A stretch of DNA of 64,000 nt from Patiria pectinifera. Taxonomy: Eukaryota; Echinodermata; Asteroidea; Valvatida; Asterinidae. Of the stretch, positions 24,301 to 61,100 are shown in pieces (the first letter of the stretch is position 1; the number at the start of each line of letters is the position of its first letter). The notes under the pieces are model-generated. The model made no database searches, was not told the DNA's origin, and saw nothing but the letters and a program-made list of their open reading frames with translations. A program made the position numbers and the translations under genes. The DNA lies in assembly GCA_029964075.1 (NCBI GenBank), contig CM057142.1, positions 37,636,392 through 37,700,391 of the forward strand. The letters are read 5' to 3'.

Positions 24301-27300
24301 GTGGCCACTAACCGTGGTCCAGAGGCGATGTGTGGTATAAATACCCAAAAGTATCCGCATTACCGGCGATACTGAACACCAGTAATACACTGATGAATGA
24401 GCACGAAATGGCCGGTTATATAGGCAGGCCCGTTTCTGCTTTCTTTTGTCCTTTAAATGTGTGGCATACCTCAGTTAACCAGACAATACAATCTCACGTG
24501 ATTCCGATTGGAGGTAATGGTGAGGTAGAATTGGATTCTGCCTCAATCCTCTGAAGTCTTGTTATCTCTTGGTTTTGTTCAGTGGAGGGGTGACCACTGC
24601 CTCAATCCTTCGAAATACTCTAATCTCACTATAAAGATGTTGAACCAGCAGTGTGGATCACATCGAGTACAATTCTATAGCTACCTTAATGCATGGCTGA
24701 ACATACAGAGTGTGAGGTACATCGTCCAAAATCACCCAAGACCGAATCAGTCATTGCCCTGAATCCTCCATAAACCAACCAGCTCTTCAAGACATACATC
24801 CCTAATCTACCAAAATTCTAAAAAACCGCCTGATTGAATTTGATGGATTGAAAGGGTTAGAGTTTGAATGCCTAGACACAAGATAGACATCAATACTAGC
24901 CCCAAAAAAGTGTCGTCAAGACTGATGATGTCTTCTCTATGTTGCTTAGATAACAAGCGGCTTGACGAGTGGGTGGAGCGAGATCGTCTGAACCTTGACA
25001 AGATGCAGCTACCCAAGAAAGATGCCAAGACGCCAGTCAAAGACAGCAGCGTCAGCAAAGGAAACTGCTCCTCCAATTCGAGAGCATCTTCTCCCGAAAG
25101 AGAGATCGTAAGGGTTTCGTAAAGGACTCATTGATTTGTAGATATCACTCAGCCTTACAATCCCTAGATCCATTAAATCCATCACAATCTTTGAAAGAGT
25201 TTTGCAGGATTAAGAAAGGTAGACGCTGGTCACTCATACTTTAAATGCGACCTGATTCAAATTTCAAGGCTATCATGGAAAAAGTTGAGGGAGGGGAGGG
25301 GGGGCGGATTCTGCCCCCCCCCCCCCGGCCCTTTTAGGGTTAAGGTGACATGTTTTTATTTGCTACACAGACTAACGGCGGAGGAGGACTGAATTTGATG
25401 CAGCGCAACAAGGCAGCCATAGGCCGTAAGCGCAAGCTACCCATGAACGAGGCAGGAGCACCAGCGTCTCAGCAGCAGATGACAGGCATACCAGTGATTG
25501 ACAACCCTTCGTCACCGGTCTCCACCCCGCTGTCAGTTTCCCCAACACAGCTATCACAGGGCCAGAGTCTGGTGCCCAGTTTCTCTCAGCAGGTATTGTA
25601 TTGTCTTCGTGGGCTGTCCCAGACTAAAATTTGCTGTTCTTTGTTTTCTTATCTTTGTATCAATCTTTGTAGTGTATGGTGGTGATTTCATCTGAATCAA
25701 ATCAAATGAAATCAAACCCTACCTCAAACTTGCTGATAAAGAGCCAGAGAACAGACCACACTTCCTGGTCCTTTCGACCTCTGATGTGGGGTCGACTTGA
25801 AAGGTCAGTCCAGTGAATTTTATGTCAAAGCATATTTTTATGTAGTATATGTTCCTGGGAACTGTATGGAAATCATCATTTAATTTCTACAAAACATTGT
25901 AGTTTTTCCATACTGTTTCCTGACAAGAATTGAGGGTACAGTTGCTGTAATATTACTTCAGACGAACCCAGAAAATTGATTTATTTAAAGGGAATATACA
26001 ACATTTGCAAACATTGACAAATAAAACTACCAAGTTTTTGCGAAATACCTTAATAGGATGTTGTTAATGACAGTCTAAAGCATCCTGTAAAATTATGGCA
26101 CCTGGTGTGAAGTCATTTTCAAGAAAATGGTATTTTTGTAAAAAATTTCCAGCGGTGGTCGGCCGACCACCGTTGGAAAAACCTAACTATTTTTCAACTA
26201 CTGCTCCAAATTTACCATTAATTCCATCCAAATTTTGTTTGCTATTGGTTACATGTTTATGAACGGTTGCAGGCCAGCTAGACTGGTATCCTTACCTTAC
26301 AACTTTCCGGCATCTGTAAATTGGTCCATTTTATATTTAGTGGAGTCAGGGAACCAGACTACTTGAACAGTTTTGTTTTTCTTGGTTTTTCCAGCATTTT
26401 CGAACACAAAACTTCAAACATGTGAGTGTAACAATATTTGATCTATTATACTAACCCCTCAAATACTTCATTTCTGAAAATTACAGCAAAAGTCAATGAT
26501 GTATATTCCCTTTAAGTTTTCTCGGGCTCTCATTTAATAAATCAGCAACAAAATGCACACACCAAAATAAGAAGCGACCACAGCAAAAAAAGAAAGAAAA
26601 GAAAAGGGACAAACTATCCCCAAACTTCAATAAACTGTTCTATTCTGCACCGACATGTACAACAAAATGCACACACAAAAAACCTAGTCCCAGTGAACAA
26701 TGCCACAGTTTGTATCCTGCTGCTTTCGGTGACCACAGACTCTGAGGCAGTCTGACCTTGAGACTTTTGGCCCGATGGATCTCGCTACACTGAGCAGGCT
26801 TGTCATTTTAATAGACAAGTGTTGCATGTTGCTGCGTTTGGCAGGCTTTCTAGCCAAAACAACTGGAGTGTTAGGGTTAAAGAGGTTGTGGAATGCTCGA
26901 AGACATTTCCGTCATTTGAGGGGTATATGTAGCCTAAGGTGTGATGAAATAAAAACGACTATTGTTTCTGTCATGAAATGAGTGCAAAGGGTACTTTTGA
27001 GAGCTATTTTTCAGGTCCTGTTTCGACCCGAACGTGCAATTTGTGTGAAAGTCGTCGTTGCGGGCAGCAAACAAAACACAGTAAATCGTGACGTAATAAA
27101 CAGGACTTGTTTATGCTACTCTGCATCGGGAGTCCTGTTTATTACGTCACAATTTACTGTTCTCAAAAGTACCTTTGTACTCATTTTATGACAAAAACAA
27201 TAGTCGTTTTAATTTCATCACACCTTAGGCTACATATACCCGAAAAATGACGGAAATGTCTTCGAGCTTTCCACAACCTCTTTAAAGTACAACCTGTATA

Positions 27301-58100: not shown

Positions 58101-61100
58101 ACAGTTTGTAAAAAGTAGTAAAAAAAAAACTAAACAAGTGCATGAATTCCATGAGATCGGTACTAATATCCACCTTATATACACACAATTATATAGTGGA
58201 TGTCACTGACTGGGAATCAAACCCAAAAAGCTTAAAAGGTAATTAATGTACAACATTTGCTTATTGTGCTGTAAATTTCAGAAATGGTTGAATTTGGGGT
58301 AAGTATTTTACAGCAAATATTGTTACACTGAATGTTGTTTACGAATGTGTAACTAACTGCAAACCTGATGTGTAGCAAATTGCAAACAAATATATGTGGA
58401 CTAACTAAATTTGGTATATTGGGGGCAGTATTTGAAAAAGTAAGTGTTTTTCAACAATGGTCGGACGACCGTCGTTGGAAATTGATACAAAATTTCACTT
58501 TTCTTGAAAACGACAGCTTACCGGGGTGCCATGGTTTCACAGGATGCTTGAGACTGCTATTCACTTACAGTCAAGTAAGGTATTTCATATACTTGCAAAT
58601 TTTATTTTTTATTAATATTAAAGTTTATTACCTTTAAAGGTGGAAAGCTTAAGATAGAGCCATTGACCAACTTAATTGCCAAAACAGATTTCTCCTCTTC
58701 GAGGGGATATATAAGGGCTCGGAGGGGTTTGGTGGCTTGGGGTACAATGTATATGGGACAAATTGAATTTCTTATCACCTGGGTTTAGGCTCTACTGAAC
58801 CTGACAAGTTCAGCTTCAGAGCCGGCAGATTGGGCGCTTAACTCTTAGGGCTGCAGCTATCCGGCTGCCTTGGGGAAAGGGTAATCAGTAACTCAGCAGC
58901 TGGACCATGGATAATTAAGCTCTGAAATCCTTGCAGCACAGAGGAATTAGACACATGTGATGACGTTGAAAGGTGGACTATATAGAGTACGTACTTGTTA
59001 GATTGCTCTGGGACACTGCACTGTATGCAGGGAGTATTAATTGCCGTCATTTTTCTCTTTCTCTGTGATTCCATTCACTACTGGTCACATACTGTGAAGA
59101 CAGGAACAGATCGAGGAACTCGGACAGTTTGGGGTGGGGACAGGGGGGGGGGGTTATAAGGGAGGTCTGACCTTTAGTGCTTATAACCCAGGGTTGGCTT
59201 ATTTTTATGTGTCTGAGCACCGACTTTACGCTGAATGTTTGCGGAAACTAAGCCTCATGTTTTTCAGGATGGGGATCCTAGCTGACCCCCTCCCAGCCCA
59301 ATAAATATGCACTGCATCCCATATCATCTGTGCTTGAGATGACCATTTTTCCTTCCTCCATGAGATCACATATTATCCGAAATACCTACAAATGTTTAGC
59401 ATAAGCAGTACCGGTATGTGCAAATTTCTAACATTTTGCCCCAAGACAAAGACATTTTAGACATTCTAGGGTTCAACATGAATACACCAGGCCAATCAGA
59501 TTAAAAAGAAACGATGATCATTTCATCAGGGCTGTGAGCTCTACAAAATCTCTCACTGTGCTGTCAAGGATGCATCTTCGTGCAGCACACTAAACAAACC
59601 AGCAACTTTTTTAATCACATTCTGTTGTTGTTAACTGAGAAAGATTGCTTTCAAGGCCTCTGGGAAACAGTTTTTTCTTCCATGAATTGGCAGATAAGCA
59701 ATAAAAAGAGGACATAAATATGGTTTTTATTAATCAACTTCTCTGGTCAGCAGGAATACCTTCATTAATGAAGTCCCTGCTGTTATGGCTACTAGTGCCA
59801 TATGTACCCACCGGGGGTGTTGCTGAGCAAGCTTAATACCTGACACTATGTGTCCCTATGCCAGCCAGATGTTTTATATTGACCATGAAACTGATGGTGT
59901 ATTTGTGCATTTGAGTTCAGAGGGACCAGCATACATATGCGCAAATTGTAACAAGAATGACATGGCCCAGTTTTGAACCCTGATTTTCTTCTTCTTCTTT
60001 TTTGGATCTGGGGTTTTGAAGAACTACATGCCACTGTCAAGATACAGATAAATTTATTATTCAGTCAGAATAGCCCAAGTTTCAACCCAAGAGAAATGTA
60101 TCAAAAGAATTTACTTTTGAGAAAGATTGTTTCCAGTTAGCAACAGTTTATCATTCCACGTGTGACATGCATGCACCTTATAGGGATCAAATAGAAATGT
60201 GTTGAAAGGGGGCTGCTGGTTGAACCCCCCCCCCCCTCCTATAAAAGAAAGACATCAATTTATTCATTTATAAATGTGTTCCTATTTTTTATAAGTTCAT
60301 TTACTCATATTCTTGCCCATTTGCCTATTTGTCAATTAGTTCAAATGCTCATTTTCCTTATTTTCATCCATTTAGTTGTTACATTTCTATATTTGTTCAG
60401 TTTCACATTCATTCATTTTGTTCATCCAGTTATTCACTTGCTCATTAAGTCATTTGTTCATTTTTACATTTGTTCACTTGTCAATTACGTGTAATCCCTT
60501 GTTCATTTTTTTCATTAGATGACAGGTTCATCAGTTCATTTAAGTGCTGATTAGGCCCCCCAAAAAAGTCTCCGGTTTCTGGTATGGAGCTTGCCAAGGC
60601 GTGCGACGCAATTTTTACTGATTTTTTGCTTCAAATGTCGGCTGATGACTGCAAATGGTGCCCGACTAAACTTAGTGCAAATATATGGGAGTCCAAAGAT
60701 TTTAAAAAAGCTTATCTTGACCATAACCAAATCTAAAAACACGTTTAAATTGTGCAGCAGCAGGATTCCAGTCAAACCAGTGAGTTTGGCGGTTTTGAGA
60801 CATCATCTTTCATTAAAAAAACATTTTTTTTTTGCTTTTTGCCAACGCATGGGCGCCAGCGGCGTAGACCAGAAACCGGAGACTTTTTTTTTGTGGCCTT
60901 ATGCTCATATGTTCATTTATCAGTTGTGCATCATATGTGTTCCCAAATGGATCTCTCCAAATATTCCTGAAGTAACTGCCCTACCTTGTTGTGGTCTATA
61001 GAATACCCGCTTGCACACAGTACAAACGTCTATGATACGCGTGCAGATCCGACAATTATTTATGCAATACAGCACTACGTCTTGACCTTCAAATTCTGAC

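Follow-up and report, generated by a model that had tools for sequence, protein, structure and literature searches.

An Internal Palindrome Shared by a Clan of TTAA-Flanked, Probably Kolobok-Related Miniature Elements in the Sea Star Patiria pectinifera

Introduction

It is generally assumed that miniature inverted-repeat transposable elements (MITEs) require hardly more than their ends. A stretch of 64,000 nucleotides from Patiria pectinifera (assembly GCA_029964075.1, contig CM057142.1, positions 37,636,392 to 37,700,391 of the forward strand; hereafter the window) raises the question of what a palindrome may be doing inside such elements. An earlier note on the window had described six TTAA-flanked MITEs with inverted ends and, fixed at their centre, a palindrome of about 30 bp framed by CCAACG/CGTTGG, the symmetry of which would persist although its bases differ among copies. 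We scanned the whole genome (613.5 Mb in 1,020 contigs) for related elements, and found that pairing between the two arms of the palindrome largely outlasts base changes between source lineages. Symmetry is a property of these lineages and shows no sign of being upheld after insertion. Such a pattern hints at a role in moving, with none for the host. A conserved internal palindrome present in thousands of copies amounts to a natural experiment, in which lineage changes, set against private decay, separate the needs of moving from drift. We found no such layout or mechanism described in the titles and abstracts of the literature searched.

Results

Three homologous families carry the palindrome away from their midpoint

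Repeats are present at all six coordinates given in the earlier note, and all six MITEs are real (Table 1). TTAA is found on both sides of five of them; the sixth (55330-55839) shows TAGTAAGG instead of TTAA at its left end. Three window copies were examined for their inverted ends, and each has terminal inverted repeats, 21-24 bp in length. The six copies do not form a single set. Five belong to one family (A) and are 74-89% identical over the longer BLAST matches, while the 41878-42435 copy gives no BLAST match to these five and is a distant homologue of family A by alignment (family B). Two relatives belonging to a third family (C) had been missed; both were retrieved with whole family C copies as query, and not with the palindrome itself. 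Families A, B, and C are homologous, most clearly over the palindrome-bearing end (alignment of 14 elements), and share the end motif TTAAAG...CATTTGC as well as a TCATTTT..AAG box about 130 bp in. We refer to them collectively as the clan. At one locus (L064:1-560), the element is chimeric, family B-like on one side and family A-like, with the core, on the other.

Each of the six copies does carry one palindrome, of about 34 bp; across the clan it measures 32-36 bp and lies about 160-200 bp from one end. On the forward strand, its centre falls at 0.34, 0.66, 0.31, 0.70, 0.34, and 0.58 of the six elements (in coordinate order), and once elements are oriented it falls 0.30-0.42 from the same end of all six, which rules out a location at the element midpoint. 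Similarly, the palindrome of copy L010 starts at base 162 of 533. The symmetry is imperfect in all six window copies, with 1, 2, 2, 2, 3, and 4 mismatched pairs out of 12-14, and the CCAACG/CGTTGG frame, thought to be common to all copies, is intact on both sides of the 41878 copy only, the other five being changed on one or both sides. Perfect cores are found in 27 of 93 family A copies and 2 of 82 family B copies, in samples anchored outside the core.

Table 1. MITE copies of the clan and their palindromes in the window.
Feature	Position	Strand	Remarks
Family A copy (group A1)	25985..26515	+	531 bp; TTAA both sides
Palindrome of 25985 copy	26146..26179		One mismatched pair (G opposite T, pair 7)
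Family A copy (group A2)	29655..30175	-	521 bp; TTAA both sides
Palindrome of 29655 copy	29980..30013		Two mismatched pairs in inner 28 bp
Family B copy	41878..42435	+	558 bp; TTAA both sides
Palindrome of 41878 copy	42037..42066		Below the 36 bp usual in family B
Family A copy (group A3)	55330..55839	-	Left TTAA mutated away
Palindrome of 55330 copy	55669..55702		Two mismatched pairs in inner 28 bp
Family A copy near A2	57555..58076	+	89% to 29655 copy; TTAA both sides
Palindrome of 57555 copy	57717..57750		Three mismatched pairs in inner 28 bp
Shortened family A copy	58232..58637	-	406 bp; TTAA both sides
Palindrome of 58232 copy	58448..58481		Four mismatched pairs in inner 28 bp
Decayed family C relative	342..718	-	Decayed palindrome at about 521-556
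Decayed family C relative	62428..62814	+	Left arm of palindrome at about 62582; right arm lost

The earlier note had itself raised the objection that the core might simply be the chance centre of a long foldback. Among 92 aligned family A copies, the 17 arm positions pair at frequencies of 0.79-1.00 and pairing stops at the edge of the palindrome: the mirrored flanks pair at 0.03-0.77, with 9 of the 12 positions at or below 0.13 and the remaining three at 0.39, 0.39, and 0.77. As pairing does not extend outward, this possibility is ruled out.

The frame is abundant and its outer arms are conserved

The pattern TTCCAACG-N8..24-CGTTGGAA matches 4,780 places genome-wide against one for its reversed control, which exceeds chance (the pattern reads alike on both strands, so that forward and reverse matches are the same places). 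When the inner length is set to 19-49, the same frame is found at 72 places (control: 4). Inner length is thus nearly fixed. A family A pattern anchored outside the core matches 4,144 places (2,026 + 2,118; controls 1 and 0), and the corresponding family B pattern 367 places (173 + 194; controls 0). In addition, a further pattern matches 1,478 places, and many of the 100 listed represent a group in which the spacer is shorter and the core complete. The samples analyzed below consist of 93 rows for A and 82 for B, after 7 of 100 and 17 of 99 rows, respectively, were dropped for indels or divergence.

Across the clan, the outer arms read TTTCCAAYG / CRTTGGAAA, and the majority base is identical in A and B at all nine positions on each side in these samples anchored outside the core. 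When 524 nine-column windows are ranked over seven A copies and two B copies, TTTCCAACG comes first (0.94, against a median of 0.43). Next are windows in the TCATTTT..AAG box around base 130 (0.88-0.89), then in the right arm (0.87) and in the end motif CATTTGC (0.86).

Inner arms differ between lineages but still pair

In contrast to the outer arms, the inner arms are lineage-specific yet pairing. They read TCAGTCAA|TTGACTGA in family C and TGGTTCAG|CTGAACCA in a subgroup of family A (D), the nearest A copy of which is L015 and which has one extra base in each arm. Six C and D copies pair at 14-17 of 17 positions, among copies (L058-L064) that were fetched by variants of the core pattern, a selection which favours the core. 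Within family A, pair 10 is C-G in 46, G-C in 29, and A-T in 5 of 93 copies (G/G in 10, other in 3), and pair 13 is G-C in 62 and A-T in 19 (other in 12). In family B, pair 10 is G-C in 50 of 82 copies and A-T in 19 (other in 13); A/A stands at the centre pair in 24. As counted by eye and without a tree, there are about five matched versus four unmatched changes between lineages. The earlier claim that symmetry persists despite base change thus holds between lineages, at pairs 10 and 13 and in the inner arms of all four groups (A to D). Among the window copies themselves, lineage differences and private decay are mixed in the base differences.

The arms decay independently once inserted

Resident copies offer an internal control at one pair. 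Each outer arm contains one CpG, which can decay to TG or CA, so that double decay can give two pairing and two non-pairing combinations with equal opportunity. Genome-wide, doubly decayed copies are pairing at 142 places (102 + 40) and non-pairing at 144 (78 + 66), with an odds ratio of 0.79 (95% confidence interval 0.49-1.30; Fisher P 0.39); unpaired doubles expected under independence numbered 128. A few of the places counted are not MITE cores by eye, and one of them (L065) has no match to the families. At this outer CpG pair, the only one covered by the test and the only one with such a control, we therefore see no indication that inserted copies maintain pairing or that one arm is copied onto the other. 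The excess of compensatory change that the earlier note proposed to look for, and the lack of which it named as refuting its reading, is absent from resident copies at this pair, and its suggestion of maintained symmetry fails there. A hint of arm homogenisation, four symmetric CpG doubles in 100 rows that did not group as nearest neighbours in a 30-copy tree, disappeared once asymmetric doubles were counted alongside symmetric ones across the genome. The lack of an excess of symmetric doubles also limits polymerase template switching between the arms as a continuing process.

Larger losses were recorded in family B, where the interval between anchors is shortened at 71 places (controls 2 and 1), versus 367 in the normal range. 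The 71 places represent 49 distinct deletion intervals (losses of at least 8 bp), the largest group comprising 10 copies and the next four, and the symmetry centre is deleted in 44 of them. Losses of the palindrome in B are thus common and mostly private, and the ratio of 71 to 367 does not show palindrome fragility. The group of ten shares an identical truncated core and is found on C21, C119, C166, C233, C252, C275, C320, C595, and C734, nine of the copies being on small contigs; it may be a repeat that includes part of a B element and was amplified locally.

The clan probably belongs to Kolobok

Judging from their sequences, the elements of the clan are probably non-autonomous Kolobok elements. 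Kolobok is marked by a TTAA target and 5'-RR...YY-3' termini, the latter separating it from piggyBac (PMC9587614). Inside the TTAA, the termini of A, B, and C are AG...CT, which fits, although several decayed copies have worn ends. Two pairs of adjoining family A copies (C17:15814004-15814645 and L071:246-1239) have a single TTAA in common, as if one copy had inserted into the flank of the other; the abutting copies share exactly 4 bases at both loci. The piggyBac superfamily, the other candidate named in the earlier note, is ruled out by the AG...CT termini despite the TTAA target: MITEs of piggyBac type have that target in common with the clan, but the clan begins with AG and its RR...YY termini are not of piggyBac type (PMC9587614).

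Kolobok elements, including Kol0 and KolobokP, share the TTAA target and RR...YY termini with the clan, but the portions of their description drawn on here mention no internal palindrome, and in the clan we saw no long terminal direct repeats and found no coding partner (PMC9587614). T2-MITE, a family of Xenopus attributed to the Kolobok superfamily, is likewise short, abundant, non-coding, and targeted to TTAA; its end motif AGGRR is matched by family A (AGGGA) but not by B (AGCTA/AGATA) or C (AGGCA), so that the clan as a whole does not fit it, and unlike the clan it is not credited with an internal palindrome in the parts of that source cited here (PMC6004289).

The search for an autonomous TTAA element suggested in the earlier note yielded no partner. 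Kolobok transposases are listed as having DDE, THAP, and H2CH features (PMC6004289). In the flanks of 30 loci with a PF20700 transposase, there was no exact end motif within 1.5 kb and no framed palindrome was seen. Among 15 KolX-type matches, six loci were inspected, and none showed matching ends except for ordinary MITEs in L071. An autonomous element with the ends of the clan was thus not found among these 30 and six loci, larger elements and other transposases being outside the search. The PF20700 copies lie at C14:9660197-9666784 (L025, L026, and L035, three in a row) and at L027-L053, with up to 698 codons open; in many of them, the reading frame is preceded by TTAAAGGTTGCAGACCAGTAAATAGGCCCC or a variant of it.

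Discussion

What has to be explained is what the sequences show: the anatomy of the elements, the homology of the families, pairing at the level of lineages, and independent decay of the arms at one CpG pair. Our best explanation, to which we assign a probability of roughly 0.45, is that the clan is an old one of non-autonomous, Kolobok-like TTAA MITEs in which the palindrome is a mobilisation site, most likely a protein dyad. Source copies would need the palindrome when they are mobilised, and it would most likely be bound by a dimer of an unseen transposase or accessory protein. Selection would then act only through which copies move, so that the arms would stay mostly matched in lineages but decay in copies that have settled. 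In favour of this reading are the majority bases that A and B share in the outer arms, the nearly fixed inner length, the joint change of pairs between lineages, and the mostly private losses in family B. Outer arms of fixed sequence are suggestive of a dyad bound by a protein dimer, the paired but variable inner arms suggest that structure may count too, and the amplification of mismatched groups shows a high tolerance. A partial parallel exists. The internal repeats of the P element are not known to make up one continuous palindrome. That element, as described in the parts of the source cited here, compares with the clan in its way of working only, being cut-and-paste, with conserved internal sites, 11-bp internal inverted repeats, and internal transposase-binding sites, but it differs by its 8-bp target duplications and its termini (PMC7776569).

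Several points weigh against a mobilisation site. No autonomous partner was found among the loci inspected, and a dimer site does not need paired inner arms. The young A1 group is mismatched (G opposite T at pair 7) at all eight loci L001-L008, the first being the 25985 copy of the window; G/G stands at pair 10 in 9 of 35 A1 rows, and G/A at pair 14 in 35 of 82 family B rows. Since mismatches at pairs 7, 10, and 14 occur in groups that were amplified, exact symmetry is unneeded. The one long-lived truncated group of family B (ten copies) may have moved without a whole core. In addition, independent lineages are few and their matched and unmatched changes were counted by eye rather than on a tree, and the A-B alignment favours the core, four of its seven A copies (L010, L013, L014, and L015) having been fetched by the core pattern.

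A serious rival, rather unlikely in our estimation, is that the palindrome has no function: a founder would have carried it by chance, rare template switching of a polymerase between the arms would have changed both arms in a single event, and the product would have been amplified by chance. Template switching that makes the arms of inverted repeats alike has been described (PMC8604942, PMC3820800, in the portions cited here), by eye many of the 72 places at which the inner part is longer resemble local duplications or switches of arm sequence (e.g., C3:7564278 and C14:21212021), and the extra base of subgroup D is present in both arms. On the other hand, symmetric doubles are not in excess in resident copies at the outer CpG pair, the mismatched groups retained their mismatch through amplification, and switching does not account for the outer arms being the best-conserved windows of the A-B comparison (in the core-biased alignment).

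Structure itself might instead be the signal: mobility would need a hairpin or cruciform extruded from the DNA, or a hairpin in RNA, while the inner-arm sequence is free as long as it pairs. We regard this as doubtful. Inner arms do vary yet pair, including a matched length change, and five tested cores fold as single-stranded DNA hairpins with z scores of -6.8 to -9.5, as any palindrome would. Structure alone, however, does not require sequence-fixed outer arms; moreover, mismatched groups were amplified, resident copies have no excess of compensation, and no known RNA family was matched at the elements at the Rfam gathering threshold. It is equally improbable that mobility depends on the internal palindrome as a paired structure, with inner sequence free, complementarity constrained, and selection acting in moving lineages only; if true, this would be a case of compensatory evolution of DNA structure inside a cut-and-paste element. 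Finally, the palindrome could be the cutting site of a KolobokP-type homing nuclease and the elements solo terminal repeats, which is very improbable. In KolobokP, the terminal repeats measure about 450 or 660 bp and carry short terminal inverted repeats of their own, solo copies are frequent, and the I-PpoI-like nuclease is expected to bind a semi-palindromic site, I-PpoI leaving TTAA overhangs; the KolobokP duplications of 3-5 bp without strong target preference differ from the TTAA flanks of the clan (PMC9587614, in the parts cited here). TTAA stands at the centre of the commonest core in family B, but A, C, and D have GGCC or AGCT and AATT there, and we noticed no coding region with paired copies around it, no dedicated search for such pairs or for a nuclease having been made.

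If the mobilisation site is real, it offers a way to trace the missing transposase and to ask whether the pick-up of TTAA elements is controlled by a dyad in their interior.

Other features of the window

The 29655-30175 MITE ends 8 bp before the apparent first base (30184) of an exon encoding a MOZ/SAS acetyltransferase domain (PF01853, E 5.3e-23), and its pyrimidine-rich end may be part of the splice acceptor. Symmetric sequences also occur outside the clan copies: a foldback at 39285-39483 has 71-nt arms with 92% complementarity, which enclose a perfect palindrome of 40 bp (39358-39397), and positions 17003-17030 form a GC-rich near-perfect palindrome, AAGGAGCGCGAGCGCGATCGCGCTCCTT. Finally, a tRNA gene or tRNA-like repeat lies at 11876-11948 (Rfam RF00005, 39.8 bits).

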